A DNA stretch of 64,000 bases from Chloranthus sessilifolius (lineage: Eukaryota > Streptophyta > Magnoliopsida > Chloranthales > Chloranthaceae): positions 150,739,317 to 150,803,316 of the forward strand of contig CM037584.1 of assembly GCA_021018995.1 (NCBI GenBank). The letters are read 5' to 3'. The translations under genes were made by a program, and so were the position numbers. Position 1 is the first letter of the stretch; each line of letters starts with the position of its first letter. This document shows, in pieces, positions 27,871 to 63,437 of the stretch. The notes below the pieces were generated by a model, which was given only the letters and a program-made list of their open reading frames with translations, ran no database searches and was not told where the DNA came from.

Positions 27871-28172
27871 ACCGGTCAAAATGAGATTTTTGATCAATCA
27901 AAGGGCTTTATAAAGCCCACAGACTCGACCGGTCAAAATCGTTTAGACTAGTCACAAAATGAGAGAAATTCAATTTTCCAACAAAGCTTATGTTCTTGAA
28001 GCAAAGCTCCCCAGTCTCAACCGGTCGAAATCTATTTCGACAAGTCGAAACACAACACAGAACATCAGAAACTCTGATTTTTGATAAAACATTGATTTCG
28101 ACCGGTCGACTCAGGCTCGACCAGTCAAAATTCGTTGCATTTCTTCCTTCTTGAGCAACTTGACCAATCAAA
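27871..28172 (-). promoter_or_regulatory. GACCGGTC motif cluster inside element B
   Basis: Sites include ACCGGTCAAAA (27871), CTCGACCGGTCAAAATCG, AGACTAGTCAC, TCAACCGGTCGAAATC, TTTCGACAAGTCGAAA, TTCGACCGGTCGACTC, GCTCGACCAGTCAAAATT and CTTGACCAATCAAAATC. The last pairs repeat at 19-20 bp. The same motif occurs in the B LTR at 43914-44172. Confidence 0.5.
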
Positions 28173-28338
28173 ATCTGGTAAAGAACTCAGTTCTCAGCCC
28201 AGACTTTACCAATACAAACATAAAGACTTCTAAAAATAAGCAAACTTAAAACTTCAATTAATAATATACATGGTGCTTGGGTTGCCTTCCAAGAAGCACT
28301 ACGGATGCGTCAGTAGCTCGAGTAGGTCATTGTGCTCA
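28173..28338 (-). other. Element B post-pol spacer
   Basis: On the minus strand TGGAAGGCAACCCAAGCACC at about 28270-28292 is the GGCAACCCAAG signature common after pol in Athila-type elements. It follows directly on the end of gag, so protease, reverse transcriptase, RNase H and integrase are absent. Confidence 0.5.
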
Positions 28339-30004: not shown

Positions 30005-32584
30005 TGTGACAGCCCGGACTTCGGCACCCCGAAACCCGTGCCATCAGCACGATCATCTTGACCGTGCCCCTCAACTATGCACGGAACACTGGTATATCAA
30101 GCATAAAATAAATAAGAACAACTTGCGGAATTTAAATCTACATAAAAATACTTCTCAAAAGACAGTTCTACCCTCATGCCTCTGCATGAAGGGAGAACCG
30201 ATCCGAACCATCGATGATAACCATCATCATGGATGGTTCGCCCAAAAGAATACTCTGATATCCATATACACAAGGTTTAATAAAAAAAAACCAGGCTTGA
30301 CATACCAAGCCGTACAATCTCCAACTAAAACTCCTCAAAGTCGCACAGCAGAGTCCTCTAGAAGAAGTCCTCTGGAGGTGGCTCTAACTCCTCGCCGGCC
30401 GCAAGGTCCGACTCACCGGTCGGCGTCTCCACAAGCCTCGTGACTACTAGTAGTGGACCTGCGCGACGTATAGTCTATAGGGTGAGCTACATCCTAGCTC
30501 AATAGAGAGCGAACACAATTGAACATATAAAATATAACTCACATGTATTCTATGATATGCATGATGTGTCTATGCATTTATTGATGGAAAACAGTTAAAA
30601 ACGCTTCAATTACTGGTAGGTTACTCATGTCTTTTAGTTAATCAAGAATGATGCTGAGAAGGCCTAAAGCAAAACTTAAACTTCAACTTAAATAATCCCC
30701 GAGCAATATAGCATCGAGCCCCGACGAGATACCCTTCATCGTCATCTATATAGGCAGGTTTTAAATGTATTCACAGGAATACCAATAGTACCAAGCCCCT
30801 TTCCACAGGGATTGGTGGCGGGTTTCACATCTCATCAACACCCACAGGGTGTGCTTACTCTGTCTGGATAAGCCTCTCGGCCTCTGAATTAGCGCCGTAT
30901 CGGTCACGGATATCTGCGCGTCGATCGTGGTTATCCGCCACGTCGGTGGGGTAACCTATCAAACCTCAAATAACAAAAATATCGATTGCCTTACATATAG
31001 TTATTCACCGTGTAATTGTGCTATCTTATATCGTTAGGCCTCATCAAGCATGATTCAATCATGGATACATCCACAGGATGTGTCCGTTCACTTACATCAC
31101 ACGATGCCTTTACCTCTTCACTTCATCATCCCACAGGGATGGTCCATTTAAGATCTCTTATGAATGTCACACACACACAGTTTTCATAATCATTGAGTAG
31201 AAAAACATTTGAATTCAATTGATATCATTACATACATGCTCTTGTAAAATAAAGAACAAGTTCAGGGTGTTCCCAATGAGAAGACTTTAGCTGATCAATG
31301 CATCAAGATCCCGCATGGCTCCTTGTGCACTCGTTCTCACGTACCACCTATGGTACCATATAACATGTGAAACACATCACAAAGGATGCCATAGAGAAGG
31401 TATAAGATCTCGCAAAATCTTAAAGTCAAACCAAAGGTCAACTACACGATCGATTAATCGATCTCCAAAATCGATTAATCGAATCAATTCGATGTCGATT
31501 TCCAAAATCGATTAATCGAAAGTCAATATCGATTAATCGAAGCAATTTCGATTAATCGAAATTCTCCTTCGCAAAGTCCATTCTCGATTCGAGCAATTGA
31601 ATTGTCATTCGATTAATCGAATACATTTTGATTAATCGAAATTCTTCTTTCGCAAAGTAAATTCTTGTTGACGATTCGAGTTTCCATTCGATTAATCGAA
31701 TCAATTTCGATTAATCGAAATCCTTCTTCAGCAGGACCCTTATTTGAATAGTCGATTTTCACAAGTTGATTAATCGATTCCAAATCGACATCGAAACTAA
31801 ATCGATTAATCGAAATCCCATTCGATTAGTCGATTTTTCCTTAAGTTATTTCCTCCAACCCACGAGGGTCCTTGGAAGTTCTCGATCGATTAATCGATTC
31901 TCAAATCGATTAATCGAAATCAAAATCGATTAATCGAAATCCAATTCGATTAATGAAATCGGTCCTCGACTCTTCAACTTCACGGCCAATTTCGATTAAT
32001 GACAATTTCGATTAATCGAAATTGTCGATTCGACCCCTTGTTCTTCCCAATCTTTTCCATACTTTTCTTCTATCTTTCTAAGCCATTATCCTATGATTTA
32101 ACCCACATTTCTTGTAACTTAACCCCTATAATCTATGCATCTTATTTACCAAAAAATTTACCTTGGATAGACCTCAAGTTGATTTCTATCAATAGTTGGA
32201 AGGCTAGGGTTTCTAGCTCGGTTCTAACGGATCCCTTAACGTCGAATCCGGCCTCTTTAATGCTTGACTCCCTCTTCCAAACAGATTGCAATAACTCCTC
32301 TCTTAATCCTCTCTCTTTCTCTCTTCTTTACTTCAACCACCAAAACATGAAAGTTAGGGTTTTCAACCCTTTTATCTTATCCTTTTTTTCTCGGCGTGGA
32401 GCACATACACACTCATCAGTGTATGTAACTCTACAACTCCTCTATCTCTCCCCTCTTCTACACTGTTTCATACATCACTTCTCCTCATCTCCTTAAGTTC
32501 ACCAATGAACTATCTCATGGTCAAACCTAAGACCAATCGAGCACGGATCCCGAGTCATAGTTCAATGTGATTTTAGGGCTTACA
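30005..32584 (-). repeat. T1 3' LTR (left copy)
   Basis: About 2.58 kb, ending GGGCTTACA before the C-rich polypurine-tract complement. Compared with the right copy it lacks or alters bases mainly at CTG/CAG and CCCTGGG sites. Confidence 0.9.
31448..32026 (-). promoter_or_regulatory. CGATTAATCG palindrome array in T1 left LTR
   Basis: About twenty perfect or near copies of TCGATTAATCGA, usually flanked by AAA and TTT, mostly spaced 19-21 bp where they run in series. Individual copies are missing or damaged relative to the right LTR. Confidence 0.8.
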
Positions 32585-32600: not shown

Positions 32601-33065
32601 AATTTTAGGTCTCGAAAATCACCCAAAGGTGTGGTGGTGTACCTCTCCCCACACTTGGAGGTGAGGTGGTTCATTGGACTCATATGTATTTAAGTCTCCA
32701 CACATTCACACAACACAAACATGGAAGTAGAAGCTAGCAAAATTGAACAATTTATATAAAAATTTAATTTGTATTAAGGATTGAATATTTTGTTACAATG
32801 CCAATAAGTTGGCGTACAATAAAAAGTAATGTATAATCAAAATGCAAAAGACATAGGCGACTCAAGCAGGTCCCCTCGGTGATCGTGCTTTGGGCAGTTG
32901 CTCCATCCGAGGTGGCGGTCGGACAAGATGGTGGCGAACTCTTTGGAGCTGGCTGTGTGGGGGTGGTGGCCTGGTGGCCGGATGTGGATGTGGAGGAACT
33001 GCGTCCGTGGTGGGATGGAAGACGGGTCCTCTATGGAAGGCGTGCGTCCGGCCGTCCATTCTTCT
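32601..33065 (-). other. T1 region between aORF stop and polypurine tract
   Basis: This probable 3' untranslated sequence has no domain. The overlapping Pro/His-rich frames on both strands look like composition artefacts. Confidence 0.5.
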
Positions 33066-34354
33066 TCATGCCAAAGACATATCCATGTAGGTGTGGGGGT
33101 AGATGAACTGGAGGGTGTGAAACATGAGGAAATCAATCCTCCTGTTCATCCTCTCGTTATTTGCGTCCATTCTGGCCAACACGTCCTCTATGGTAGGACC
33201 GGATGGAGCGCGCCGGCGGTAGGATGAGGTGGGAGTCATGGCGCGAGTGTGTGTGGTGTCGGCGGTTGTGGTGTGGGAGGAACCCTCTCCACAGATGGCT
33301 CACGGCGGGTGTGCCCCACCCTCAAGTGGGTCCTTTGAGGTGGTGTGCTTCTTCTTTGACTCTTTGGGCGGGAGCGGGACCCGGAGCTGGTAGGGTCCGC
33401 TTCAATAGGTTGTAGCTACGGGTCCATGAAGACTTGGTGAACGTCTTCACGCGATCCGTAGCCCTCACCTCGTGGGGCGAAATAGTGTAGGAGGGCTCGT
33501 GAGTAGCACTCCAACATGCTCGAGATGAGCCGAGCATACGGCATCTTCTCCTTGGGCGCATGTTGCCCTTCATCACTTACTCTTGATGTACCGCATCCCT
33601 CAAGGATGACCATGGTAGCATCAAACCATCGCCATGAAGGCGCGTAAAGTGCATGTTGCACTTTATCCACGCTCCGTGTCGTGGCGATCGGGTAAAGGTT
33701 GCATTTTATTATGGAGTCGAGCATCCACATGTAGGGTGGAAGGCCGACCCTCTTGATGGACGTGCCCGACCCCTTCTTCCCGTTGGTCATGCGAGACATG
33801 ACCTCTTCAAAACGGGGTTCCTTTTCAAAGGGTGGGAATAAGGTAGTCTCGGGGTAAAGTCGAGGTAGCATTCAAGCACCTCACGAGTGATCGTGAGAGA
33901 CCCCCTCGATCTTGGTTATAATACAATCGTCGCTAGGGCCATTGGTTAGCCCTTGGTAGAACAACCTCACCAATCTAGGGTAATAGGAACCCCGGATTGG
34001 TTTGAGAAGGTTGCCGAGTCCGGCACTGGTTAGGTAGTTCTGAGCCCATTGGGTCTCGCCCGGTAAATCGGGATTTGTGAATAGGGTAGGGTCGATGGTG
34101 TATTCGACCTCAAAGGTCTTGGCAGCCCACCACTCGTTTGGTTGCTCCACGTTGGTGGGTGGTGGTGGCATGGGGGTGGATTCGCGGGAAGACTCGCGCG
34201 TAGATGCGCTCGTCGAACCGGAGGTGGTCTCCGATTCCGACGGTGATGGAGTCCTCACCGGCGACGGGGTAGGTGGTGGTGGTGCGGCGTTCTTACGCCT
34301 AACCGGTAGCTTGGAAGTTGCCTTCTTCGAAGACAATCGGGTTTTGGGCGGCAT
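33066..34354 (-). pseudogene. T1 extra ORF (aORF), homologous to those of E1 and E3, frameshifted
   Basis: From the ATG at 34354 the product has a basic N-terminus (MPPKTRLSSKKATSKLPVRR), a Pro/Ser/Thr-rich linker to about residue 70, then a globular part: NEWWAAKTFEVEY, YYPRLVRLFYQGL (residues 124-136). After a frameshift near 33890 come PPYMWMLDSIIKC, MPYARLISSML and, in further frames, SWTRSYNLLKRTLP and MDANNERMNRRIDFLMFHTL, ending with TGA at 33066-33068. Intact length would be about 430 residues. Function is unknown; the tail fits a DNA- or nucleus-directed protein. A motif array and TATA box lie upstream. Frameshifts may be real or base-calling errors. Confidence 0.72.
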
Positions 34355-34566
34355 ATTGGGGAAAACTAGGGTTTTTAACTAGCTCAAATGGAAAGAAAAC
34401 GGAAATCTAGGGTTTACCTTAGGTTTTCGAAGGCGGATTCGGAAGCGAATCGATGGAAGGTCCAAACCCTAGGGCACCGGCTTGTCGGAGAAGAGGAAGA
34501 AGATCAACCGTTTAAAAACCTCAAAGTGAAATGATTTCGAATGCCAAAGAAAATCCCCAATTTTCA
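34355..34566 (-). other. 5' untranslated region of T1 aORF
   Basis: The roughly 210 bp between the TATA box and the ATG contain TTCTTCCTCTTCTCC and several AAACCCTAG-type leader motifs of plant transcripts. A possible 5' splice site (AAGGTAAACC) is seen, but no intron is proven. Confidence 0.35.
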
Positions 34567-34574
34567 ATATATAG
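34567..34574 (-). promoter_or_regulatory. TATA box between palindrome array and T1 aORF
   Basis: The minus strand reads CCTATATATTG directly downstream of the last palindrome (34579-34588) and about 210 bp before the aORF ATG. The order array, TATA, leader, ORF is that of a compact promoter. Confidence 0.5.
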
Positions 34575-34578
34575 GACT

Positions 34579-35200
34579 CGATTAATCGAAATTACATTTC
34601 GATTAATCGAAATTTAAAACTAGGTTAAGCCGCGTAAAATCGATTAATCGATTTCCCAAATCGATTAATCGAAAGTCAAATTCGATTAATCGAAAATATT
34701 TTGATTAATCGAAATCGTGCCTGTTTAAAATTTCAAATTTTTAAGCTCACTGGCGCTTGCCAGTCGATTAATCGAAATCCCTTTCGATTAATCGAAATTC
34801 CAAAATCGATTAATCGAATTTAGTTTCGATTAATCGAAATAAAACTATAACTTCAATTTTTCTAAACTTTCTTAAGTATTCGATTAATGAAATCCATTTC
34901 GATTAATCGAAATTTCAAATCGATTAATCGAAATTACTTGATTAATCGAAATTATCCATTGACTTTAATATCTCTCAAGTCCTTTAAGTAACTCGATTAA
35001 TCGAAAATCCAATTCGATTAATCGAATTACAAAATCGATTAATCGAAATTTATAATTCGATCAATCGAAACTTCATTCTAGGTATATTCTAACTCAAATT
35101 TTTCATTTCCAGTCACTGGCACATGCCAGTCGACTAATCGAACAAAATCGATTAATCGAAATTCCAAATCGATTAATCGATTTGAAATTCGATTAATCGG
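34579..35200 (-). promoter_or_regulatory. Internal CGATTAATCG palindrome array upstream of T1 aORF
   Basis: Twenty-two perfect or near copies of the LTR motif lie in five sub-blocks of four or so, each mostly at 19-21 bp steps. Two sub-blocks are preceded by perfect small hairpins (ACTGGC-GCTT-GCCAGT at 34749-34764; ACTGGC-ACAT-GCCAGT at 35115-35130). It lies between the end of pol and the aORF, outside the LTRs. Confidence 0.8.
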
Positions 35201-35308
35201 TTTTGCCCTATTTTTTACAAAATTTCAATCTTTTCTTTCTTTTACTATTTTTGACAATTTAATGATTGGATCAAAATTTCCATTGAATTTCAAGCATAGT
35301 GGAAATTT

Positions 35309-35569
35309 TCACAAAGCGTGGTTGCGGTTTACACCGAATTCACACGTTGTTGGAAACAAGGCCGGATATTGTTCTTTCACATCGGCCTCTCGTTCCCAAG
35401 TAGCCTCTTCTTTTGGATGATTGTTCCACCGAACAAGCACTAAGGGAATCACTTTAGTGCGCAGTACTTGCTCTTTTCGATCCAGAATCTCCACTGGTTC
35501 CTCTATCATGCTCATGTCCTCACACATCTCTATAGGTTGCTTCCCTAACACATGAGACGGATCATTCAC
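35309..35569 (-). pseudogene. T1 chromodomain and pol C-terminus
   Basis: VEILDRKEQVLRTK, then VIPLVLVRWNNHPKEEATWE and YPALF form the C-terminal chromodomain typical of chromoviruses, which is known to steer integration to particular chromatin. It is read in a frame overlapping the preceding integrase segment by a few bases, so one frameshift separates them. Confidence 0.8.
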
Positions 35570-36735
35570 GTATTTTCTACGAGCATCGATATGTGGAAGA
35601 CATTATGTACTCGATCGAATAGCGGTGGTAAACTAATGCGATATGCAACTTCACCTATTCCCAAAATTTCAAATGGTCCAACATAACGTGGACTTAACTT
35701 CCCCTCTTGCCAAATCGCATTACACCTTTCATAGGTGACACCTTCACAAACACATGCGCCCCACTTTGTAGTCAACACTAGTCCGCTTCACATCGAGCGT
35801 AACTTTTCTCTCTCTCTTGTCTTCAACCTTTCTTCGATAATTCGGACAACGGTGGCGTTGTCTTCAAGCGATTCGGTCCTAATACAAATTTCTCACTGTT
35901 TCCTCCCAATTGAGGTGACTTGCATCGTCGTCCATCTGAGCTTCATACGGTGCCATGCCAATGCTCGTTTGAAAACTGTTGTTATATGAACTCGAGCATC
36001 GGTAGATACTCATCCGATCCTTGCATATCAAGCATGCAAGCTCTGAGCATGTCTTCTATCACTTGATTCACCCGCTCTGTCTGCCCATCAGTTTGAGGAT
36101 GGAAAGCTGAACTAAAGTCTAGTCGTGTTCCCATTCCTTCTTGAAATTTCTTCTAAAACTTGGACGTATATAGTGGATCACGATCTGAAATGATGCTGCT
36201 TGGAATCCCCTGTAATCTTACAATCTCCTTCATGTATAATTCTGCCAGTCTTCCTGCAGATATATGTATTATACTGACAAAAGTCTTGATTTGGTCAATC
36301 GGTCTCTGACCCAAATGGCATTGTGTCTCTTAGCGATGGGGTAATCCAACAATGAAATCCATTGAGATCGATTCCCACTTCCATTACGGTATTGGTAAAG
36401 GTTGCAATAGTCCCAGGATGTCTATGATCAACCTTCACTTGTCGACAAGTCAAACATCGTGACACATACTCCACGCGTCTTGTTTGATCCTCTCCACGGT
36501 AATTCTTTTTCAAATCTTGGTACATTTGGTGCTACCGGTGGATAGCATAATTTGACTTATGCGCCCCATCAAGAATCGTCCGTCTTAGATCGGCATTGAC
36601 CGGGATGCATAGACGGCCTTTAAACAACAAAGAACCATCTTCTTTTACTGAAAAGTCCGACCTGATGCCTTCATTCACGTCTTGATGAATCTTTGTTAAT
36701 GTCGGATCCTTCATCTGTAGATCGTGGATATGTTC
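35570..36735 (-). pseudogene. T1 integrase, several frameshifts
   Basis: In minus-strand order: the zinc-binding end (HKSNYAIHR; YVSRCLTCRQVKVDHRHPG), a core spread over frames with the ISDRDPLY box (about 36175-36200), HPQTDGQTERVNQ (about 36050-36090, catalytic Glu) and LRACMLDMQG, and the C-terminal part YVGPFEILGIGEVAYRISLP. Both catalytic Asp boxes and the Glu can be read, so the site itself is preserved although the frame is broken. Confidence 0.78.
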
Positions 36736-37532
36736 AAATATCAGCTTCTTGATATGTTAGCCAAAAAGGATCCAGTGTCCTTTGACTCAATGTTCGCATC
36801 ATAGAGTGCCAGGTCTTCCAATAATTTCCATCGGTGCATACCCAAAATCAAAGAAGCTAATTGAGCTGAACCTTTTCGACTCAATGCATCGGCTACTACA
36901 TTCGCCTTGCCTGGATGGTATTGTATAGAGCAATCGTAGTCCTTGAGGAATTCCATCCATCTGCGCTGTCTCATATTGAGCTCCTTCTGTGTAAACAGAT
37001 ATCGGAGGCTCTTATGATCGGTGAAAATTTCAAATGTCTCACCATACAAGTAGTGTCTCCAAATTTTCAGCGCAAAAATGACTGCTGCCAGTTCCAAGTC
37101 ATGAGTCGGGTAATTTTTCTCGTGTTCTTTCAACTGTCTTGATCCGTAAGCTATCACCTGCTTGTGTTGGTTGAGCACACAACCAAGGCCATTGTATGAC
37201 GCGTCGCTGTACACTGCGTATCCTCCTCTGCCTGAAGGAATTGCCAACACTGGAGCCGAAGTGAGTCTCGTTTTGAGTTCTTGAAAACTCTTCTCGCATG
37301 CCTCACTCCACTCAAACCTTGAATCTTTACGTGTCAGCTTTGTGAGAGGTCCCGATATTTTTGAAAACCCCTCAACGAAACGTCGATAATAGCCTGCTAA
37401 GCCCAGAAAACTTCGGACATCCATCCGTCTTTGGTGCTCCCATTTAACTCGCTTCTATCTTTCTTTGGATCTACTGGTAATGTAGCCGTGGAGACGACAT
37501 GTCCCTAAAAGCTAACTTCTTCCAACCAATAC
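36736..37532 (-). pseudogene. T1 RT connection and RNase H
   Basis: [20 protein letters not shown] leads into RNase H with [17 protein letters not shown] (Asp), [20 protein letters not shown] (Glu) and [20 protein letters not shown] (Asp), ending with [16 protein letters not shown]. The domain order is canonical and most of it lies in one frame (36741-37424). Confidence 0.88.
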
Positions 37533-38198
37533 TCACACTTCGAGTTTGGCGTACAATTGGTGTTCACGAAGCGTATGTAGAGCAATCCTCAAGTGTTCTT
37601 GGTGCTGCGTCTTGGATTTGGAGTATATCAGTATATCATCAACGAACACTACCACGCAGGAGTCCAAGTGTGGTGTAAACACTCGCTTCATCGGATCCAT
37701 AAATGATTTTGGAGCATTCGTTAATCCAAACGGCATCACAAGGAATTCATAGTGTCCATACCGTGTCCGGAAAGCTGTCTTCTGTATGTCCTCTGTCTTG
37801 ACTCGCAACTGATGATAACCAGATCTTAGGTCGATCTTGGAAAAATACCTTGCTCCTTGCAGTTGGTCGAATAGATCGTCAATTCTAGGCAAAGGGTAGC
37901 GGTTCTTCACAGTAAGTTTGTTCAATTGTCGATAGTCAATGCATAGTCGCATTGACCCATCTTTCTTCTTGACAAATAAGACCGGTGCTCCCCATGGAGA
38001 CACGCTCGGTCTAACAAACCCCTTGTCCATTAGTTCTTGTAGTTGTTCCTTCAACTCCTTTGACTCAGCGGGAGCCATTCTATAAGGTGCTTTTGAAATA
38101 GGCTCCGTTCCTGGTGCTAAGTCAATGGCGAATTCTACTTCTCTTTCTGGAGCTAATCCAGGCAATTTTTCCGGAACACGTCCAAATAAGTCTCGCAT
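37533..38198 (-). pseudogene. T1 reverse transcriptase (Tekay-like)
   Basis: An open segment of 221 codons has [74 protein letters not shown] and the active site [12 protein letters not shown]. These motifs match Del/Tekay chromoviruses. The frame closes before the connection domain near 37530, where a shift occurs. Confidence 0.9.
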
Positions 38199-38800
38199 AA
38201 TTGCTATCTCGAAATGACGTTCTTTTCCTCCTTGTCCTCCTTTAAGAAAGCTAAGTATCCAGCATCCCTTCGATCATTTTCTCGGCCCTTCTGAGATCAT
38301 GGCACATATAATGACCTCACTCCTTGAAACCGAAATGATCTTCTTGTGTTGGGTGCGAAATGACTACCTTGTTCTTGCAATCAATGGTCGCACAATCTTT
38401 GCGCCAACGATCCATGCCAAGGATCACATCAAACCCTTGCATGTCTAAAGATCAACTTTGCTTCCAATTCATGCACTTCTAAGTCTTGAACACTTTCTGA
38501 CGATGGATTTGCAAGCTAACTCCGTGTCTACTAACTCTCTCGGAATAGACACGATAGGACGAAATCCAACGTCTGAACGATCTTCATCTTCTTAGCAAAG
38601 CGTGGAGGACGAATGAGTGGGTAGACCCGGGTCTATCAACACTCGGCGTCATGTCTAAATACACTTTTCATACATAGTTAAAGTACCTATAATATATATA
38701 CACATACATACAGAAATTTACACATCAAAATGCACTCTCAGTTTATATTAAAAGAATCTACACTATTCCTAATGCATGCACCCTTTCCATCTAAAATTCT
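38199..38800 (-). pseudogene. T1 protease region, degraded
   Basis: Fragments in several frames: LIDPGSTHSFV near 38610-38640 (active site D-P-G-S instead of D-T-G/S) and GFDVILGMDRW near 38400-38440, as in other Tekay-like proteases. No long open frame remains. Confidence 0.6.
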
Positions 38801-40192
38801 TTATGAAACGGAATTTTTTTCTGTAATAAAATAAAATTTCTCACCTTGGATGACGTCGTGCACATTCCCTGCTTCCTGAGCAGTGACTGCATAGGCTCTC
38901 CCCCTAACAATCGGCTTCTTTGCTTGAATGGGTCGTGGTGCTGTAACTGAAGCCGTCTTGCCCTTGTCTGTCTCGGGGCAATCCTTGATCAAGTGGCCCA
39001 CCTTGCCACGGAAACAACCTCTAGTTCGATTTTGCAGTCTACAGTCCTATGCGGCTTGCCACATCTGGCACACGTCTCTCGAGGTGCGGAAGATACGATA
39101 CGAGAACCCTGTGTGATGGCGCCCGATGAGACATGGCAGGCTCTCATAGCGAAAAAGGTCTCCCGACGCAAGTAATGGAAACCTCTGTTGGTATTCATTG
39201 CGCCTTCCAAAACCTCCACAAGCTGCGGTCTCTGACCCTGACCCACGAACCTCGGCTTTTTATTCACCGGTTCGTAGTTCCCCATCCTTCCGTGGTCAAG
39301 TCCTCTCTGTTGCTCTCTCTGTCTATATCTGTTCGTGTTCTCCTCTTCTACAACCAATGCTTTGCTCATGACCTCTTCATAGGTCCTAAGTTGAAATGGA
39401 GCCACGCCTCCCCTAACCTCAGGCTTCAAACCTTGCTGAAACCTCTTGGACTTCATCACTTCAGTAGCGACGTAGTCCGGTGCAAAACGGGCAAGTCGTA
39501 GAAACTCTACCCCATACTCTCTGACTGTCATCCTCCCTTGTACTAGTAGGGTGAATCTCAAGTGGTTCCTCACTACTTAGGAAAATATTGTTTGTTGAAT
39601 TCCTCAACAATTCCTCCCAAGTCCAAGGCAACTCGGGTCTCTGAGGCGAGTCCTTATCACGGACTTCCACCAAGGCCCAGCCTCCCCATCCAACATGTAA
39701 GCTGCCCATCTTACACTCTCATCTTCCCTGCAAGTTAGCACGCTAAAGACTTTCTCCATTTCCATCTGCCAATTCTCGCCATTGTGCGCCGCCTTTGGAA
39801 AATGTAGGAGGTCTCATCCTTCTAAACTCTGTAAAAGATGAGGGCACAGGCAACGCAGGTCCTACAGGTGGTGTAGGTGGCTGCTGTTCTCTAGACGCAT
39901 GAGCTGCAAAGGATGCGGCTTGTTGTGCCATGGCAGCTGCCATAGTCTCCATAGTGTGCATCATCCTTTGTCGCTCTTCTCTATCTTCTTGTCTTTCTCT
40001 CAATCTTTCTTGCTCTCTCAGATCTTGATCCTGATGATCTCGATCCTCTTCCTCATGCTGTCTGCTACTACTGCCCCCTGGGGCCTCGTTACCTCCTAAA
40101 GGCACTCTGTTGGTAGGAGAGATGAAATCATCTCCACTACGCAAACTCCTTTGATGGCCTCCTCTTGGTCGGCCCCTCCCTCTAGCTGACAT
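38801..40192 (-). pseudogene. T1 gag, three frames
   Basis: It starts at the ATG at 40192 (MSARGRGRPRGGHQRSLRSG); an in-frame ATG further upstream would begin inside the LTR and is unlikely. A Gln/Glu/Arg-rich coiled-coil-like stretch follows, then the gag core (LLVQGRMTVREYGVEFLRLA, FQQGLKPEVRGGVAPFQ), a first Cys-His cluster (CARCGKPHRTVDCK) and, after a frameshift, the end of a zinc knuckle (MGHLIKDCPETDKG). Frameshifts lie near 39740, 39580 and 39000. Confidence 0.82.
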
Positions 40193-40272
40193 TGCGGCTG
40201 CATTTGAAACTAAAGTTTCGTTAGCAGAAGCCCCTATGTTACGAAAAGAACCCTTGTCGAGTGCTAAAAGAA

Positions 40273-40288
40273 AATGCTTTGATACCAA
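40273..40288 (-). other. T1 PBS (initiator tRNA-Met type)
   Basis: The minus strand reads TTGGTATCAAAGCATT directly after the LTR end GGGCTGTCACAG, close to the common TGGTATCAGAGC primer site. Confidence 0.8.
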
Positions 40289-40289
40289 C

Positions 40290-42928
40290 TGTGACAGCCC
40301 GGACTTCGGCACCCCGAAACCCGTGCCATCAGCACGATCATCTTGACCGTGCCCCTCAACTATGCACGGAACACTGGTATATCAAGCATAAAATAAATAA
40401 GAACAACTTGCGGAATTTAAATCTACATAAAAACACTTCTCAAAAGACAGTTCTACCCTCATGCCTCTGCATGAAGGGAGAACCGATCCGAACTCATCGA
40501 TGATAACCATCATCATGGATGGTTCGCCCAAAAGAATACTCTGATATCCATATACACAAGGTTTAATCAAAAAAAACCAGGCTTGACATACCAAGCCGTA
40601 CAATCTCCAACTAAAACTCCTCAAAGTCGCACAGCAGAGTCCTCTAGAAGAAGTCCTCTGGAGGTGGCTCTAACTCCTCGCCGGCCGCAAGGTCCGACTC
40701 ACCGGGGTCAGCGTCTCCTGAAGCCTCGGCAGCTGCTAGTAGTGGACCTGCGACGTATAGTCTATAGGGTGAGCTACATCCTAGCTCAATAGGGAACAGA
40801 ACACAATTGAACATATAAAATATAACTCACATGTATTCTATGATATGCATGTATGATGTGTTTATGCATTTATTGATGGAAAACAGTTAAAAATGCTTCA
40901 ATTACTGGTAGGTTACTCATGTCTTTTAGTTAATCAAGAATGATGCTGAGAAGGCCTAAAGCAAAACTTAAACTTCAACTTAAATAATCCCCGAGCAATA
41001 TAGCATCGAGCCCCGACGAGATACCCTTCATCGTCATCTATATAGATTTTAAATGTATTCACAGGAATACCAATAGTACCAAGCCCCTTTCACAGGGATT
41101 GGTGGCGGGTTTCACATCTCATCAACACCCACGGGTGTGCTTACTCTGTCTGCGGATAAGCCTCCGTCTTGGCCTCTGATTAACGCCGTATCGGTCACGG
41201 ATATCCTGCGCGTCGGTATGGTTATCCCGCCACGTCGGTGGGGTAACCTATCAAACCTCAAATAACAAAATATCGATTGCCTTACATATAGTTATTCACC
41301 GTGTAATTGTGCTATCTTATATGCTTAGGCCTCATCAAGCATGATTCAATCATGGATACATCCCTGGGATGTGTCCGTTCACTTGCATCACACCTGATGC
41401 CTTTACCTCTTCACTTCATCATCCCCTGGGGATGGTCCATTTAAGATCTCTTATGAATGTCACACACACACTTTTCATAATCATTGAGTAGTAAAACATT
41501 TGAATTGAATTGATATCATTACATACATGCTCTTGTAAAATAAAGTACATGTTCAGGGTGTTCCCTACCACAAGTCTTTAGCTGATCAATGCATCAAGGT
41601 CCCGCATGGCTCCTTGTGCACTCGTTCTCACGTACCACCTATGGTACCATATAACATGTGAAACACATCACAAAGGATGCCATAGAGAAGGTATAAGATC
41701 TCCCAAAAATCTTAAAGTCAAACCAAAGGTCAACATAGTTCACTACAGTCGATTAATCGATCTCCAAAATCGATTAATCGAATCTGATTCGATTAATCGA
41801 TTTCCAAAATCGATTAATCGAAAGTCAATATCAATTAATCGAAGCAATTTCGATTAATCGAAATTCTCCTTTTCGCAAAGTCCATTCTCGATTCAATAAA
41901 TAATTGTCATTCGATTAATCGAATCTTTCGATTAATCGAAATTCTTCTTTTCAAAAGTAAATTCTTGTTCAATTGAAGTTTCCATTCGATTAATCGAATC
42001 CAATTTCGATTAATCGAAATCCTTCTTTCGCATAAGCGAGACCCTTATTTGAATAGTCGATTTTCACAAGTTGATTAATCGATTCCAAATCGATTAATCG
42101 AAACTAAAATCGATTAATCGAAATCCCATTTCGATTAGTCGATTTTTCCTTAAGTTATTTCCTCCAACCCCTGGGGTCCACTGGAAGTTCTCAGTCGATT
42201 AATCGATTCTCAAATCGATTAATCGAAATCCAAAGTCGATTAATCGAAATCCAATTCGATTAATCGAAATCGGGGTCCTCTGACTCTTCAACTTCCTGGC
42301 CAATTTCGATTAATCGAAACCCAATTTCGATTAATCGAAATTGTCAGTTTCAGCCCCCTTCGAGCTGTTCTTCCCAATCTTTTTCCATACTTTTTCTTCT
42401 ATCTTTCTAAGCCATTATCCTATGATTTAACCCACATTTTACTGTAACTTAACCCCTATAATCTATGCATCTTATTTACCAAAAAATTTACCTTGGATAG
42501 ACCTCAAGTTGATTTCTATCAATAGTTGGAAGGCTAGGGTTTCTAGCTCTGGTTCTAACGGATCCCTTGCGTCGAATCCGGCCTCTTTAATGCTTGACTC
42601 CCTCTTCCAAACAGTTGCAATAACTCCTCTCTTAATCCTCTCTCTTTCTCTCTCTTCTTTACTTCTCTCAACCACCAAAACATGAAAGTTAGGGTTTTCA
42701 ACCCTTTTTATCTTATCCTTTTTTTTTCTCGGCGTGGAGCACATACACACTCATCAGTGTATGTAACTCTACAACTCCTCTATCTCTCCACTCTTCTACA
42801 CTGATTCACACATCACTTCTGCTCATCTCACCTTAAGTTCATCAATGAACTATCTCATGGTCAAACCTAAGACCAATCGGGCACGGATCCCGAGGTCATA
42901 GTTCAATGTGATTTTTCGGGCTATTACA
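40290..42928 (-). repeat. T1 5' LTR (right copy)
   Basis: About 2.64 kb with the same ends as the left copy (TGTGACAGCC to GGGCTATTACA). It preserves CTG/CAG sites that are garbled in the left copy, for example CCCTGGGATG against CCACAGGATG. Confidence 0.9.
41750..42340 (-). promoter_or_regulatory. CGATTAATCG palindrome array in T1 right LTR
   Basis: Twenty copies including near matches, mostly at 19-21 bp spacing in runs of two to four. In LTR orientation the array begins about 590 bp from the LTR 5' end, consistent with U3. Confidence 0.82.
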
Positions 42929-42933
42929 ATAAG
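42929..42933. repeat. T1 target site duplication, right
   Basis: ATAAG, identical to 30000-30004. Confidence 0.9.
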
Positions 42934-42980
42934 ATACAAATATACAAATAAAACAAAAATCAAAACAAGATAAAGCCAAA

Positions 42981-42998
42981 GTCCCCAACAGCGGTGCA
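42981..42998 (-). other. Element B PBS (diverged tRNA-Asp type)
   Basis: The + strand GTCCCCAACAGCGGTGCA is a decayed form of the tRNA-Asp 3' end seen intact in L. It sits at the same spacing from the adjacent LTR end and belongs to the B gag on the other side of T1. Confidence 0.65.
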
Positions 42999-43005: not shown

Positions 43006-44316
43006 TGATCGTTTATAAATAGAAATCTTACAACTGCACTAGTTCGAATGTACTAGGGCAAGTACAAGGGTGTCGAATCACAAGGACTTGTCATTTATCT
43101 TTATTCAATTTCTATTTTATTTTAATAAAAATATATATAATTAAGTTTCCTAAATAAACTAAAATAAAAAGAAATCTAAAATAGTTTTGAAATAAGAGAG
43201 GAGAAGGCAGTATGGAATCTCTCTTGGTTCTTAGCCTTGTTTATAATAACTCCTATTTCTTTTCTATTATGAATCCCAAGTACCTCTGCTCCATGCTACA
43301 AGCTCTGTTGCATCATATATGAATTAAACGAATCTAAACATCAAAGCATCATTGCATGTAACCAACTAAAACTGCCCTACAAGGCCTAGTCCATCAGGGA
43401 ATATCCTATCTACCTACAAGGCCACTGGAATTAAACTCAATAGAATTAAACCTTTACAATCGTGCGTTCTCGATGACTCTCGGAACCTTAAAAATGCAAT
43501 CGTACCATTAAAACGGAATTCAAAATAAAACATAAATAAACTTTATTATATACTTATCTGAAATTTACAAGAGATCTTAGGTTGATCGCTTTTAGTCTCA
43601 CATTGATCTAAAGATCTTCATCATTGCTGAATCGCTCTTCAATCAATGATTACAGTCAATTTCCCTCTATATTTCAGAACTATATATAACCTAAACTATG
43701 AATACTCGTGCCAAACTCTCTAGAAAAGGCTGTCGTGCGAATTCCTCTAAAACCTAACCCTAGGGTCCTTATTTATAGAGTATAAGGCCTCAGAATACAC
43801 AAGTATCTCTCCGTGATCCAAAAAAATTAGTTGGACGAAGAAGAACCGGAAGGAGATTGATACGTCAGAGAAAATCTAGCCGGAAAGCACATTTTTCGAG
43901 CAGAAACTCTATTGTGATCGGTTGAACTAGTTTCTCAACCAATCAGACTTCAGATTAATTCTTCAGGTCACACGCGCTTTGCGAAGCTTCAATTCTCTTG
44001 AATTCCTGATCGGTCGAACTGGTTGTGACCGGTCGACTTTGTGTATCTGAAGCTTCTGGGAGAGCTAGCTGATCAAAATAGATATTTTGACCAATCCATT
44101 TAGGTCCTTTATTTCTTCTCTGTTTTCCTCCTAAACAACTCTCTATTGCGCGGTCCTAATCGATCAAATTTGCAATCTTGACTCGTCACAATGACCTTTC
44201 TGGGCATTCTTTCAATCGGTTTCCTCTTAGATTCTTGCCGAAGCTTTGGGTTTCTTCTAATGTTGCTCATTTAACTCATTTCTCATTTATCCAACCTTTG
44301 CACCTGTTGCAACACA
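43006..44316 (-). repeat. Element B 5' LTR
   Basis: On the + strand it runs from TGATCGTTTATAAAT, next to the PBS, to GCAACACA. On the minus strand it therefore starts TGTGTTGC, like the L LTR start TGTGTTGAG. The right boundary is inferred from that similarity. The second LTR is lost at the L junction. Confidence 0.55.
43914..44172 (-). promoter_or_regulatory. GACCGGTC-type motif cluster in element B LTR
   Basis: TGATCGGTTGAACTAG, CTGATCGGTCGAACTGG, TGTGACCGGTCGACTTT and ATTTTGACCAATCC match the motif forms inside B at 27871-28172. There are fewer and more decayed copies than in the T1 or E3 arrays. Confidence 0.4.
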
Positions 44317-44561
44317 ACATGAACTAAAAGCATCTATTAGTAGCTAAGTGAGAGCCAACAAGGCCAAGATTTGGATCAAAAGTATACCATTTTCGAGGTC
44401 GATCAAGCAGTATGGTCCATAATCAATCGATCGAAAAGGAAATTGATCGATCGGTCTAGTAAGTTATTATGAAATTTTTTTATTCTGTTCCGAATTGATC
44501 AATCGGGAACAAGGATCGATTGATCGATAACATTATTTCGGTAATAATTTAGGGTTCCGAA
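44317..44561. other. Older sequence between element B LTR and T2
   Basis: It contains scattered ATCGATCG-type motifs (AATCGATCGAAAAGG, TTGATCGATCGGTC, GGATCGATTGATCGATAA). It continues at 54762 after T2 and may be part of another LTR ending at 55343. Confidence 0.35.
44557..44561. repeat. T2 target site duplication, left
   Basis: CGAAA, repeated at 54757-54761 after the right LTR. Confidence 0.85.
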
Positions 44562-52271: not shown

Positions 52272-54756
52272 TATGACGCCCCAACTTTTCCCCCTACACG
52301 AATATCCGAGAAAAGCCGGTCTGTCATTGAATCCAATGCTCAATGATCACACTGAACACTGAATTCTCTGATACTATCTGTGATGACCCGATCCTCCCAA
52401 CACGGATTTCAGAGAAGACCGGTCCATCTTTTGGAAATTAGAACACATCGATATCATATATGAAAGCGGACAATCAGAATAGATATCATGTGAATATGGA
52501 AAAACAAAGATGCAGATATCAAATGGCAACAACTAGAATTTCTATATACATATAGAGCACAAGTAAATCCAAATAAACCACCAGTGACAATTAACCATCA
52601 CCTAAATTGTGGTGCAATATACAAAGGAAATATACACAGAGACCAGTGACGTAAGTGTATCAAGTCTCAAATTGCAAAAGTCTACACTATACCAAAACTA
52701 GACCAAGAACTAAGGATAGAAATCCTCTAGCTGAAGATCCTTATTCCTCTGGTACGAAATCAGGATCGCCCTGAAGTTCGGGATCCTGCTAAGTACCTAC
52801 ACTTGTGACATATGATGTCGGGATGAGCTAATAGTCTAAGCTTAGTACAGAAAAGATCAATAGCAAGTACATTTCATATCATCAAGGCATAGATTCAAAG
52901 ATCATTAATCAGAAAAAAACTCAGATCAAAACGGAGCTAAATTCCATAAGCTAATTTATATTGAAAGCGACTACTGAGTTCAAAGGCGCATTCATATCAA
53001 CACAGAGTTTACAGAAATCTTAAATGTAAATCACACGGTCTAAAGTGAAGTTTTCACATTTGATTGTGTCAAATCTGAATAAACATGCAGCTTTTACTTA
53101 ATGCCTAACTTAAGCTTTTCAACTTAAAAACCTCCAATGCATATAACATTGTTGAGTCAAATCTCCAATGGGAACCCCCTTGACCATTGTTGTTCAATTG
53201 AACAGTTTTCACAAAGTGCGGTTGATCCGCCTTACGAATAACAAATCACGGATTAATCGTCATGCCCGTTCAAAATACAATTGAGGGATTCGTTCACAGG
53301 AACCTTAAATCAAAATGCGGATTTTCTAATACTAAGTGACAAAAAACATAATTAATGGCTAAACTTTTCACATACATAGTTCGAAGCATACGGAGTTCTT
53401 ATTCGGAATTCAAATACAAAGTTCATATACAAATTCGGAAACGATGCAATGTACAAAGTTCTGATTCATAGTTCGGATTCAAAATTCAAAGAGTTCAAAG
53501 GGCAATTCCTCCATGAATCCATGGTTAAAAATCAGAATGTAACTGTGCATTGAGTTTTCTCTACCTTAACCTCGAAATTGAACAGAGCAATGCAAAGATC
53601 CTATTGGCATCCTCTAGCACTCAATCTAGATCACAATGATCAATAGCCCCATATCATTAACAAAGGAGTCGAACGACTCAATACATTCTCAAGCTTTCCC
53701 AAAGAAAATACCAAGACAGCCAAAAACAGGGTAAATTGCGCGAGCGCTCTCCAAAATCACGCAAGCGATTTTGGCACTTCCTATGGCACTTCAAAATTTG
53801 CGCGAGCGAATTTTACCAAAGAAAATCTGCCTAAAATTTGAGGAAAAATCGCGCGAGTGATTTTTTCTACAAATCTTTCTCCTTCTTTTTGAAGGCATAT
53901 CGCTCAAGCGATATTCAATATGCGCGAGCGATTTGGGATTCGCGCGAGCGATTTTGTGTGATGCAGAATCTTCTTCTTCTTTCTTCCGGGCTCATTTTTT
54001 TTTAAATTTCAAAATGAACTCAATCACACACCACACATCTATCATCCTAAATTTAGGACAGTAAATTGGCACGATAACACTATGAAACTCACCTTCTTAG
54101 GTCGCGTACACGAAGCTTGAGACAATCGTTCAAAGGGGGTTATGGGGTCACACTTGTGAAACCTCACGGCATTTGATATCAAATGAAACTCCACTCTAAT
54201 GCGCAATGATCTTTAGCTTTTAAGCCATGCAACGATCTTCACACTTACTATGGTCGACACGCGTTTGCTCTACGATACTTGCACGTTCAAAAACACGTTC
54301 TCTCTTTCTTTTCAATTTCAACTAATTCAAAGCTTGGAGGTTCCTCGCGGTTGGAATCAACACGGAACAGTCGGAACTACGAGAATCCTCGCGACGAAGA
54401 AGCTTGAGGAGATTTGGGTTTTAAAAGAGGGTTTGGGAAGAAGGATGATAGCTTGCTCTCTACTCCTCTCACAAATATCTTTGATATTAGTTTCAAATGG
54501 GTTTTGTCTCCTTTTATTACTTATGGGCTTCATCTGGTGTTAAGTAGTCACATCGTGAGTCGGTGTACGTAACAATACAAAATAATGCGGTCTAGCTTCA
54601 CTTACACACCAAATCTTTCAGCATTGATACTCTCGCTAAGCTTATGGCTCTTTTCACATGGCTCAACATATTTACTTTTGCACCACTGTACACAATTGTT
54701 AGACCCGAACACTCAATCGGGTGTAATTCGGGTTCGGAATTTTTTGGGATGTTATA
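52272..54756 (-). repeat. T2 5' LTR (right copy)
   Basis: On the + strand it starts TATGACGCCCCAAC and ends GGATGTTATA. A further PBS-like module begins at 52367 inside it. It diverges visibly from the left copy throughout. Confidence 0.85.
53737..53954 (-). promoter_or_regulatory. TCGCGCGAGCGA-type cluster in T2 right LTR
   Basis: TTGCGCGAGCGCT, TCACGCAAGCGATT, TTGCGCGAGCGAATT, ATCGCGCGAGTGATT, TCGCTCAAGCGAT, TGCGCGAGCGATT, TCGCGCGAGCGATT. The last three repeat at 20-21 bp. Better preserved than in the left LTR. Confidence 0.6.
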
Positions 54757-60031: not shown

Positions 60032-62974
60032 TGTAACAGCCCGGATTTCTACACCCAGAAATCCGTGCCATCAGGATCATACTCTAGATGATCCCCAGGA
60101 CAAATCACGAAGTGTCTGCTCGTATAGCGGAAATCAAGCAGACACTGTCCAGCAGTGGTAGATCGAGTTATCACAAGGCATTTAAAATAGAAAGAAGCAA
60201 TAAAACAAACATGTATCTAAATATATAAAAATATACATTCCCAAAAAGGAACCAAGAAGAACCAATGGTGATAGACATCCATCACCCAAAATAATGGTTC
60301 CTAATAATGGTTCCAATAGAATGTATAGTAATACTATAAAAGGAAGAAAATATCTACAGAAAGTAAATACAGAAGTGGCCACCAGGCGCACAATAATCCA
60401 AAGGTTTACACAAAATCCTAAAAATAGTAGACTCGTATACCCAGACTAAGGATAAAAGTCGAAATCACTTTGGGCGTCTCTCCTAAATCCTCGGCCTCGG
60501 CCTGGATCAGTGTAATGGGTCACTCTCGGTCTTGGGAAAGTACCGCTTCAGAACCTAAAAGTGATTTAGAAAGCAGGGTGAGCTACATCATAGCTCAATA
60601 GAAGAATTCCAACTAAATGAATTGAATATGCAGATCATGCTATCTCATAACAGAAATCAAATCAGAAACGTACAATCATGACGAGTCAAATCAAATACTG
60701 AGCTTTTAGAAAAAAAATCAGATGTTATGCAAGTATATTATCAGAGAGCTTAAATTGTGTATATTTAACTTAAGAAACTCCCGTGACTATATAGCACGGA
60801 GTAAACAGGAATGTCCGATAGGAAACCCCAACCAATCGTCGTTCACATGAACAAATTTGAAAGTGCAACAATGCCTCATCTATGGAGTGCAATTGCGCAG
60901 AGGATTACAAGCAGGTGCACAAGTGTGCCAGGCATCGGATATACCGCCGGGTCGGTGGGGATCATCTGGTTTAAATCATCAAATCACATACATATATACC
61001 TCACAGATCAGATAGCAGAAATCAGAAGCAGATTTCAGGATACGAATCAGGAAACAGAAATAAAAGATAGCAGGAATTTATGATATGCATATATGATTGT
61101 TAAAAATAGAAATCAGGACACAGATATAAAATAAACATGAAATCATACTCAAAAACAGTTTAGGTTGGTTTTCCCCTACCTCAGGTCAAACCTCTTTCTA
61201 AGCAAATCCAACGCCGTTCTAAAGCAGTCCAAAAGTTCTTATCTACGGCCTCCACTCTTAGTCTACATCACACACATGATGATGTATAAAAATTGATCCT
61301 AAATATTAATAATATTGACGTATTTAAGTGTTTTCTCAAAAAAGAGACGGAAATGGGTAATTTCGTGTTGACTCAAAACTTGACCCAACTTCCCACTTCA
61401 TTTTGACCCTCATAATATTTGATTTAAGATTTGTCTAATTCATAAAAGAGTTAGATATCGTCGTACTCTTTCCAACGCATCAAGAATCGCGTCAATCGGA
61501 GTTCGGGACAAGGAGTTATGGCCAAAATACCGAAGCTATATCGATACTTCAGTCAAAACGTGCTAACTTAGAACTTGGCCAAACTTCCAGCTCAATTTTG
61601 ATCATTAAAAAAATTTATTCATTAGTTAGTTAATTCATAAAAGTTGTAGATTTAGTTTTCCTCTTTCCAATGCCATAAGAATTTCATCAATCGGAGTTCA
61701 GAGTAAAATGTTATGGCCAAAACACTGAAGTAGTGTCGGCACAGTCAAATTGATCGATCAACACATTACATTGATCGATCAATACCACATTGATCGATCA
61801 ATTTCACCATTGATCGATCAACCACCATATTGATCGATCAATTTCACCATTGATCGATCACCCATCATATTGATCGATCAATTTCACCATTGATCGATCA
61901 ATGCTGTCGGGAATGAACCTCTAGCAACCTAACTTGCTGTTTTTATCATTGTATATATAATTTGATCGATCAATCACTTATATTGATCGATCAATACAAA
62001 ATTTGATCGATCAATCACCTATATTGATCGATCAACACCCAATTTGATCGATCAATCACCTACATTGATCGATCAAAACCTTCAGAAATGCACAGCCATA
62101 AGGTTTTGTCATTTTTGATCTATTTTCATCCAAATCATCTACGATCTTCATCGTATCACACACAAATCCACACTAAACTAAAACAAGGATTTATTCTACT
62201 ATCTAAACTATTAAAATCAAAGAAAAACTAACCTTTCTTCGATCAATTTCGCGCCTTTAAGGATCGTTGTCCAAAGGGGTTTCGAAACGAATCTTCCGAA
62301 TTTCTACGGCGATTTCACCTTGATTGATCACCACGAATTCAAGATGAAGCCGTCCATGATCCACGCATCGATCTTAACCTCTTCAACGCTTGGTTAGCGA
62401 TCACGAGGTGGAGCGTTTCTTGAAAAACGGGCTTCTAAGGAAAAAGGTGTTTGAATTGCTTGTAGTTCCCGGATCTCTAACGGTTGAAATTTACCAACGG
62501 ACACTCAGCGAGACCGTCATGTGCTTTGCAAAGGTTACGGAGATTTGGTAGCGATTGAAATTGAAATCTCACGCTTTCATGAGGGTTCCATGGGGAAGAA
62601 GCTCTCTCTCTCTCTCTCTAGAACTCCCAAACTCTAAGGCTTGCAACCGGGTGAAGCTTCTTTGAGAAGCTTTGCCTTTTAATTAGCTAAAGGGTTTGGT
62701 TTCGGTGCGAAGCGATAACACTGCAAAAGTGTGTTAGGCTTATCCACTTGAAATAGAGTTTGGTTTCGATGTTGAGCGGCACACGATGCGTCGGTGCATG
62801 GCTTTCACACTAAAGGCCCAAACACACATTTAAACTTTAATCCGTCCGTACAAGGTTATTCTAATATTATTTAAATATTTATTATTATATAAAAATCTAT
62901 GATGACATCGATTTTCGTGTCGACCACACACTCGAGGTCAGTCGAGTTCGGGTCTGATTTTTCGGGTTATTACA
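60032..62974 (-). repeat. E3 3' LTR
   Basis: About 2.94 kb with TG/CA ends. Its + strand start (TGTAACAGCCCGGATTTCTA, then TCCGTGCCATCAG) is similar to T1 (TGTGACAGCCCGGACTTCGG, then CCCGTGCCATCAG), so the families are related. The palindrome array lies in the distal, U3-like part. Confidence 0.8.
61751..62075 (-). promoter_or_regulatory. TGATCGATCA palindrome array in E3 LTR
   Basis: Fourteen exact copies of the 10 bp palindrome. Block 1 starts at 61751, 61772, 61791, 61811, 61831, 61851, 61871, 61891 (steps 21, 19, then 20). Block 2 starts at 61963, 61984, 62004, 62025, 62045, 62066 (steps 21, 20, 21, 20, 21). A TATATATA (61952-61959) lies between the blocks. Spacers differ while the palindrome is invariant. 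Confidence 0.88.
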
Positions 62975-62994
62975 TTCTTCCCACCTTAAAGAAT
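62975..62994 (-). other. E3 polypurine tract
   Basis: The minus strand reads TTTAAGGTGGGAAGAA before the LTR start TGTAATAACCC, parallel to T1 (CCAAGGTGGGGAGGA). Confidence 0.75.
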
Positions 62995-63437
62995 TTTCGT
63001 CCTCGAAAATCGACATGCCAGTTTCAATAAGGTATGAGTATAATTCAATATGCCCAAAAATTATGGTCATGACATTTTCCTCTCTTCAAGGAATTTTCGC
63101 TTTCGAAACTGCAAAACATACCTAAATAGGTCTACTATCCCCACAGGTTTAAACAAAGCAGTGATAATTATGTCACAAAATTTTATTATATTATAGTAAT
63201 AGATCAAGATAGAATAACTAAGTTCTAAATTATTTTTGCCAATAATATTTTCATAAATTTTAATTTATTTTGATTTTTCGTGCCAGGCACGTATATCAAA
63301 GCAGTCGAGTTCTGTTTAGAATTTTAGGGTCATTACATTATCCCCCCCTTAGAAATTTTCGTCCCCGAAAATGTCTAACAGACACTAACAGTTTGAACCC
63401 TAGCAAACGTGCACAGAACATCAAAATGAATATTTGG
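62995..63437 (-). repeat. E3 3' non-coding region with repeated LTR-end/PPT-like modules
   Basis: The junction motif at 62965-63010 (TTATTACATTCTTCCC ... TTTTCGTCCTCGAAAAT) recurs at 63062-63107 (TCATGACATTTTCCTC ... TTTTCGCTTTCGAAA) and 63329-63372 (GTCATTACATTATCCCCC ... TTTTCGTCCCCGAAAAT). Confidence 0.6.

Follow-up and report, generated by a model that had tools for sequence, protein, structure and literature searches.

Palindrome arrays at two promoter-like positions in a Chloranthus Ty3/gypsy retrotransposon and its neighbours suggest private genetic switches

We analysed a 64,000-nucleotide stretch of the Chloranthus sessilifolius genome (contig CM037584.1; below, the window) and in particular T1, a Ty3/gypsy long terminal repeat (LTR) retrotransposon that spans 42,928 to 30,005 on the minus strand and carries an extra open reading frame (ORF), the aORF, between pol and its 3' LTR. 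A short palindrome is repeated as an array in both LTRs and again directly upstream of the aORF; T1, together with at least one neighbour that has a different palindrome, suggests private genetic switches with the extra genes as possible controllers. The window also holds elements A, T2, T3 and T4; each of the five is present as one copy, and the results rest on these copies. The LTRs of T1 are 2.6 kb long and 93.5% identical, the target-site duplication (TSD) CTTAT flanks the element at both ends, and the primer-binding-site (PBS)-like sequence TGGTATCAAAGC directly follows the 5' LTR (ends and PBS were read by eye). T1 has Pfam matches to Retrotrans_gag, RVT_1 and RT_RNaseH, and the presence of gag, reverse transcriptase (RT), RNase H and a C-terminal chromodomain makes it a chromovirus, which we take to be of the Tekay/Del type from its LTR length and PBS.

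40290..42928, minus strand: T1 5' LTR (TGTAAT...GTCACA), from the LTR pair; TSD CTTAT at 42929-42933
30005..32584, minus strand: T1 3' LTR, from the LTR pair; TSD CTTAT at 30000-30004
35345..35554, minus strand: chromodomain at the end of T1 pol; Pfam PF00385 (Chromo), E 8.4e-07
32890..34354, minus strand: T1 aORF, ATG at 34354, frame-broken; open pieces 34354-33881 and 33871-33416, others in other frames; end approximate

Many of the differences between the two LTRs resemble systematic consensus errors (CCCAGGG versus CCTGTGG, CAG versus CG), and similar differences separate the units of a 4.9-kb tandem repeat described below. Since the LTR differences partly have this character, the broken ORF frames reported here may be artefacts.

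The arrays of T1 and the TATA box beside one of them are as follows.

41749..42338, minus strand: 5' LTR array, 20 copies of TCGATTAATCGA (17 exact), from motif counts; CpG observed/expected ratio (o/e) 2.8
31450..32019, minus strand: 3' LTR array, 17 copies of TCGATTAATCGA (13 exact), from motif counts
34578..35200, minus strand: internal array between the end of pol and the aORF, 22 copies (16 exact 12-mers, 17 exact 10-mers), from motif counts; CpG o/e 3.56
34566..34573, minus strand: TATA box TATATATT, read from the sequence; putative core promoter of the aORF

These copy numbers allow up to two mismatches to the 12-mer TCGATTAATCGA, and at that threshold one further match was found outside T1, at 44516. 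An earlier note on this DNA had described about twenty palindromes in each LTR and twenty-two in the linker between pol and the aORF; the linker count and that of the 5' LTR agree with ours, while the 3' LTR has slightly fewer. All 47 occurrences of the 10-bp core CGATTAATCG in the window lie in T1: 13 in its 3' LTR, 17 in the internal array and 17 in its 5' LTR. The expected count is 0.05 and none of 100 shuffles reached 47; chance or low complexity was rejected as the source of the arrays on these grounds.

The internal array begins about 110 bp past the stop of pol, the stop codon of the chromodomain frame lying at 35,311-35,309, and its last palindrome is 4 bp before TATATATT. In the sense direction the order is thus chromodomain-frame stop, array, TATA box, leader and aORF ATG at 34,354, which bears out the earlier description of an array followed directly by a TATA box and the aORF leader; no ATG was seen by eye in the leader. 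TATAWA boxes are common here, at 1.66 per kb per strand, and one this close would occur by chance in one or two cases in a hundred, so the internal TATA box is by itself modest evidence. A sequence that we take to be telobox-like and similar to those of plant gene promoters, AAACCCTA, is present in the aORF leader (34355-34570) and also beside the TATA box of element A (1860-1900).

Once the palindromes were masked, no significant similarity remained between the internal array and either LTR (best E value 1.8 among 10 alignments), and the motif is therefore the only feature common to the LTR and internal arrays. The idea that part of an LTR was simply copied to an internal site of T1 is unsupported on this evidence; an old duplication with fully diverged spacers is conceivable. 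In all three arrays the information content is 1.4-1.9 bits per position across the 12 bp and at most 1.3 bits within the 10 flanking bases, where the choice of sites at two or fewer mismatches raises the core values but does not affect the drop outside the core. The spacing of the palindromes is 17-22 bp in 39 of the 56 T1 intervals, which is near two helical turns, and tandem duplication may explain part of this regularity. Between the two LTRs we counted 6 differences in 233 palindrome columns, 30 in 331 columns of array spacer and 75 in 1997 columns of the remaining LTR, one of them spurious and at the edge, as the alignment starts 2 bases inside the 5' LTR and 2 outside the 3' LTR. The palindromes differ from the spacers (Fisher p 0.0015) and not from the remaining LTR (p 0.46), which indicates that the spacers are unusually divergent rather than that the palindromes are unusually conserved relative to the whole LTR.

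The same two-place layout recurs in element A, which lies on the plus strand at about 1,000-8,825 and is presumably Athila-like. Its RT is 33% identical to that of T1 over 210 amino acids (aa).

1230..1700, plus strand: array with 11 CGCG in the presumed 5' LTR of A, from CGCG counts; no A LTR pair is present in the window
7330..7765, plus strand: internal array of A with 12 CGCG, between the end of pol (6972) and the aORF ATG (8032), from CGCG counts
8032..8825, plus strand: remains of the A aORF, basic start MAPKSALKRRGKDK, related to the T1 aORF by sequence comparison

The presumed-LTR array sits about 200 bp upstream of the TATA box CTATATAAG at 1905. The number of CGCG in each stretch was reached by none of 500 shuffles, and the maximum in 100 shuffled windows was 5 per 430 bp; the CGCG-based description was, however, chosen after inspection of the sequence. 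It replaced TCTCGCGAGA, which was dropped as the palindrome of element A because it has one match within one mismatch. The aORFs of A and T1 share 30% identity across 120 aa, part of it low-complexity (E 2e-9), with a second colinear block at E 5e-6, in blastp against a small set without a low-complexity filter; a window-wide tblastn search gave E 3e-7 and 1.5e-4.

The earlier note had proposed a single factor for both positions in T1, and the evidence speaks in favour of this. The LTR and internal arrays have the 12-bp motif in common but not their spacers, information falls outside the 12 bp, and the layout returns in element A with a different motif. For these reasons we consider one dimeric DNA-binding protein at both T1 promoters to be the simplest account, and a probable one.

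The base composition of the arrays in A is also distinctive. Their CpG o/e values are 1.12 and 1.07, compared with 0.07 for pol (where TpG and CpA together stand at 1.28), 0.09 for the rest of the LTR and leader, 0.18 for the aORF and 0.56 for the aORF leader. Of the 97 CpG in element A, 62 fall in the two arrays, which occupy 907 of its 7,826 bp. The arrays have retained CpG amid near-complete loss elsewhere; either selection kept these CpG during the activity of the element or the arrays escaped methylation. CpG o/e is 0.07-0.11 across pol and most of the presumed LTR. In T1 the 5' LTR array (2.8) and internal array (3.56) also exceed pol (0.83), with the proviso that CG-containing motifs inflate the ratio of an array by themselves. 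Such values could be expected if the arrays were unmethylated CpG islands or nucleosome-excluding spacers, in which CpG density and spacing matter and no specific protein is involved, and variable LTR CpG islands have been described in some Del groups, with none in the eudicot group (PMC4029996). Density, however, needs no identical 12-bp palindrome with an AT centre, and T2 shows little contrast between its array (1.70) and the rest of the LTR (1.24). We regard this explanation as very unlikely.

Palindromes could alternatively act in RNA, where array transcripts would form long hairpins that lead to small interfering RNA production or are recognized by a double-stranded RNA-binding protein. 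The two arrays that were folded, the T1 internal array and that of T2, form far stronger structures than shuffled sequences do, with z values of -15.8 (against 20 shuffles) and -12.3 (against 100), respectively. Palindrome-rich LTR regions of maize Sireviruses are small-RNA hotspots (PMC5311732, PMC10760457), and protein models of the maize and sorghum Tekay 5' aORF resemble a double-stranded RNA-binding protein (PMC11728184). Strong folding is nevertheless an automatic consequence of repeated palindromes, hairpins require just inverted pairs and not one perfect 12-bp palindrome with unrelated spacers, and the T1 internal array directly precedes a TATA box. An RNA-level function is, in our judgement, decidedly unlikely.

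Arrays of the same general kind were found in the three remaining elements, all on the minus strand.

61750..62077, minus strand: T2 array of TTGATCGATCAA, 14 copies (13 exact), from motif counts; straddles a TATA box at 61959
62976..64000, minus strand: internal end of T2 with aORF remains related to the T1 aORF (blastp and tblastn); cut by the end of the window
27885..28175, minus strand: T4 array of TCGACCGGTCGA and variants, followed by a TATA box at 27718 and an ATG at 27640
43890..44560, minus strand: presumed remnant of a T4 LTR, in which palindromes of this class lie scattered (5 YGAYYRRTCR); from a motif search
53720..53990, minus strand: T3 5' LTR array of TCGCTCGCGCGA-like boxes, from motif counts; the weakest case

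The single T2 LTR in the window is a 3' LTR that starts at 62974 and whose end is undefined. Its palindromes are 19-21 bp apart in 12 of 13 intervals and one of them is 2 bp from the TATA box. Two pieces of T2 match the T1 aORF in small-set, likewise unfiltered blastp: one of 49 aa with 43% identity (E 3e-12), the other of 18 aa with 56% identity (E 3e-05) and, in a window-wide tblastn search, E 0.007. In T4 the 4.9-kb repeats interrupt the unassigned ORF downstream of the array about 15 codons from its start. T1 appears to have been inserted into T4, and we infer that the two flanks of T1 belong to this one element. Across the window TYGAYYRRTCRA occurs 74 times, every one within array stretches, and YGAYYRRTCR 85 times, 83 of them within array stretches; since the arrays themselves supplied this consensus, its informative side is solely the absence from other parts of the window.

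T3, the RT of which is 75% identical to that of T1 over 159 aa, differs in its arrangement. Its motif is weak, the CGCG count being reached by 7 of 500 shuffles and the combined TCGCG and CGCGA count by 3 of 500. The array is situated about 0.8-1.0 kb inside the LTR, on the downstream side of a TATAAAAG box that was located by eye at 46,885 in the 3' LTR and is not retained in the 5' LTR. Within the window T3 has no aORF-like frame, no tblastn match to the aORF and no box in its linker. An internal array thus accompanies an aORF in T1 and A, while T3 has neither; three of the five elements could be judged, T4 being left out for its truncated ORF and T2 because the start of its linker is beyond the window.

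The possession of an LTR array by an element that lacks an aORF favours a further explanation, in which host transcription factors, for example stress-related ones, bind the arrays and are exploited at both promoters while the aORF does something else. The boxes of Sireviruses matched mainly stress-factor sites (PMC2829016). On the other hand, four or five distinct palindromes in adjacent elements of one window would demand equally many host factors, and the Sirevirus study found no one binding factor common to the boxes (PMC2829016). Binding by host factors seems to us somewhat unlikely.

Related copies were also sought beyond the window. RT compared with viral_contigs gave 16 stretches that fit a pattern, none of them confirmed. 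A palindrome-pair search with the T1 motif gave one stretch in viral_contigs and four in genome_contigs, and the same search of viral_contigs gave none for the T2 motif and none for the T4 motif. The five outside loci with the T1 motif have 2-3 exact 12-mers and 2-5 GATTAATC cores each and no large array, and were taken as unrelated.

We now return to a protein encoded by the elements themselves. In this proposal one dimeric protein with sequence-specific DNA binding would recognize the palindromes as its operators, both at the LTR promoter, which makes the genomic RNA, and at an internal promoter that immediately precedes the aORF. The aORF product would be the most likely binding protein; the basic N-terminus on which the earlier note based the same suggestion is indeed present (MPPKTRLSSKKATSKLPVRRKN). 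Made first from the internal TATA promoter, it may attach to the internal array, thereby raising or safeguarding its own transcription, and may then bind the LTR arrays, so that the genomic transcript is switched on or kept unsilenced. With its own palindrome in each element family, each circuit would be private. Such a role for the aORF product would account for the co-occurrence of internal arrays and aORFs and for the use of a different palindrome in every element. The observations behind the proposal are the arrays and their positions, the shared motif amid unrelated spacers, recurrence in A and partly in T2, T3 and T4, and CpG retention in A; the binding, the identity of the protein and an effect by activation or anti-silencing rather than self-repression are what we infer from them. 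Taken as a whole, with operator arrays at both promoters, the aORF product as their ligand and a private circuit per family, the proposal is tentative, and we would call it plausible but not yet probable.

Several observations weigh against it. The LTR array of T3 has no aORF in cis, so that this element would need a factor supplied in trans or by the host. The only TATAWA in the T1 5' LTR, at 41,044, is about 700 bp downstream of the array, so that the U3-like position assumed for the LTR arrays in the earlier note is unproven and a U3 location is not established from the TATAWA scan of this LTR; there is likewise no TATAWA between the internal array of A and its aORF. The blastp E values that relate the aORFs come from small-set comparisons in which low complexity was left unfiltered, and the T2 and A pieces gave no direct match to each other (best E 0.042). 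Two T1 aORF pieces and one A piece matched no Pfam family at E values up to 10, hence no DNA-binding domain either, and with broken pieces only, no Transposase_32 (PF20167) or env-like match was obtained. Protein database searches with the aORF found no homologue, none of 2092 candidates being confirmed at E up to 0.1, and the AlphaFold model of a 151-aa aORF piece was unusable (pLDDT 39.4). Finally, six further Sireviruses have ENV and no boxes (PMC2829016).

The direction of the effect deserves separate comment, as activation, anti-silencing and self-repression are indistinguishable from sequence. If the aORF product were an autorepressor, operators abutting the TATA box would shut both promoters and control copy number, and the palindromes 4 bp from the TATA box in the T1 aORF promoter and 2 bp from it in the T2 LTR are placed accordingly. 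About twenty sites across 600 bp nevertheless exceed the needs of simple occlusion, and CpG retention may point to open chromatin. Autorepression is in our view most unlikely.

The architecture has a direct structural precedent in the Sireviruses, Ty1/copia elements of which Bousios et al. (2010) described 13 with palindromic repeated motifs in their LTRs (PMC2829016). The Sirevirus RM boxes, like the palindromes of T1, are high-copy and element-specific and cluster in the LTR and between pol and the extra gene (PMC2829016). Boxes were present in the linkers of all nine elements with ENV and of none of the four without it, 77 of 79 being upstream of ENV (PMC2829016), the same rule that T1, A and T3 follow here. 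The T1 LTRs carry 20 and 17 copies, above the minimum of eight clustered palindromic LTR boxes that characterizes the Sirevirus system. A link to an internal promoter was proposed for the Sirevirus boxes, but an internal ENV promoter was not conclusively identified (PMC2829016), whereas the internal array of T1 reaches a TATA box. T1 differs in being Ty3/gypsy, and the T1 and T2 motifs are without the CGG-CCG core, a signature also missing from the published Sirevirus Tnd-1 (PMC2829016). Since Sireviruses follow the same rule in Ty1/copia, the architecture is already known and what is new is its occurrence in a Ty3/gypsy chromovirus and an Athila-like element; judged by title and abstract, no report of such arrays in Ty3/gypsy elements was among the matches listed, which does not prove their absence in print.

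The closest functional model is the Tas loop of foamy viruses, which are animal retroviruses with no demonstrated homology to T1. Tas sites are few and are not known to form palindromic arrays. Tas acts first on an internal promoter and then on the LTR (PMC3798896). In foamy viruses the accessory gene is near the 3' LTR and has an internal promoter of its own, both promoters carry sites for a single factor, and this factor is the accessory product, which gives positive feedback (PMC3798896). In T1 the extra gene is likewise near the 3' LTR, the motif common to the LTR and internal site and the TATA box could be parts of a circuit of this type, and binding by the aORF product is a candidate equivalent.

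The earlier note had instead drawn the comparison with the VANC proteins of VANDAL elements. Its logic fits, in that short motifs lie in non-coding clusters, differ between related elements and serve private anti-silencing (PMC5735166), and CpG retention in the arrays of A is compatible with VANC-like demethylation. However, the VANDAL motifs YAGTATTAY and AGTTGT(C/A)C are not palindromic, and VANDALs are Mutator-like DNA transposons (PMC5735166) while T1 is an LTR element. The Sirevirus boxes, which the earlier note did not mention, are nearer in structure and foamy virus Tas is nearer in function. Among plant retrotransposons, Grande gene23 and the Retand aORFs also lie between pol and the 3' LTR, but they are antisense whereas the T1 aORF is sense (PMC7264820, PMC11963269). 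Grande gene23 is transcribed from a promoter of its own and its product is nuclear, and the Retand aORF has a possible DNA-binding domain and tandem repeats nearby; a palindrome array at LTR and aORF is not mentioned in the available portions of these articles (PMC7264820, PMC11963269).

The role of extra ORFs in plant retrotransposons is debated, and those on the sense strand have often been considered possible envelopes (PMC7264820). A 2026 article leaves open, with reference to VANC, whether in other LTR lineages ORFs affect the methylation of the elements that carry them (PMC12844716). One could imagine that the 3' ORFs described as env-like or orphan in plant LTR retrotransposons encode sequence-specific DNA-binding regulators instead of envelopes, that these coevolve with private palindrome arrays placed at the LTR and at the internal promoter, in a foamy-like two-promoter circuit with VANC-like protection against methylation, and that Tekay and Athila-like lineages share this circuit with Sireviruses, the latter having it independently or by exchange; as a joint claim we find this possible but doubtful. 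Were the arrays binding sites of the aORF products, each element would predict that its aORF protein binds its own palindrome. Sirevirus boxes, VANC anti-silencing and foamy virus Tas would then be linked, with a suggested route by which a methylated retrotransposon could reactivate itself. The CpG pattern of element A offers a cheap genome-wide screen, in which one would look for elements that keep their CpG chiefly in the arrays of the LTR and ahead of the aORF.

Some further features of the neighbouring elements were noted. About 3.8 tandem copies of the 4.9-kb unit, approximately 93% identical, occupy 8826-27596 between the A aORF and the start of the T4 ORF, and these two oppositely oriented ORFs are both cut by the repeats; the first unit contains a local CpG-richer stretch near 9726-10325. 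Insertions are nested at 27600-44560, where T1 lies within T4 (TSD CTTAT) and T3 (TSD TTTCG) directly adjoins the remnant presumed to be a T4 LTR, as read by eye. Also by eye, several T3 sequences that combine an LTR end with a PBS-like stretch (TCACAG..GTATCAG) were seen within the LTR, in the linker and past the 5' LTR (44674-44690, 47600-47625 and 52150-52400).

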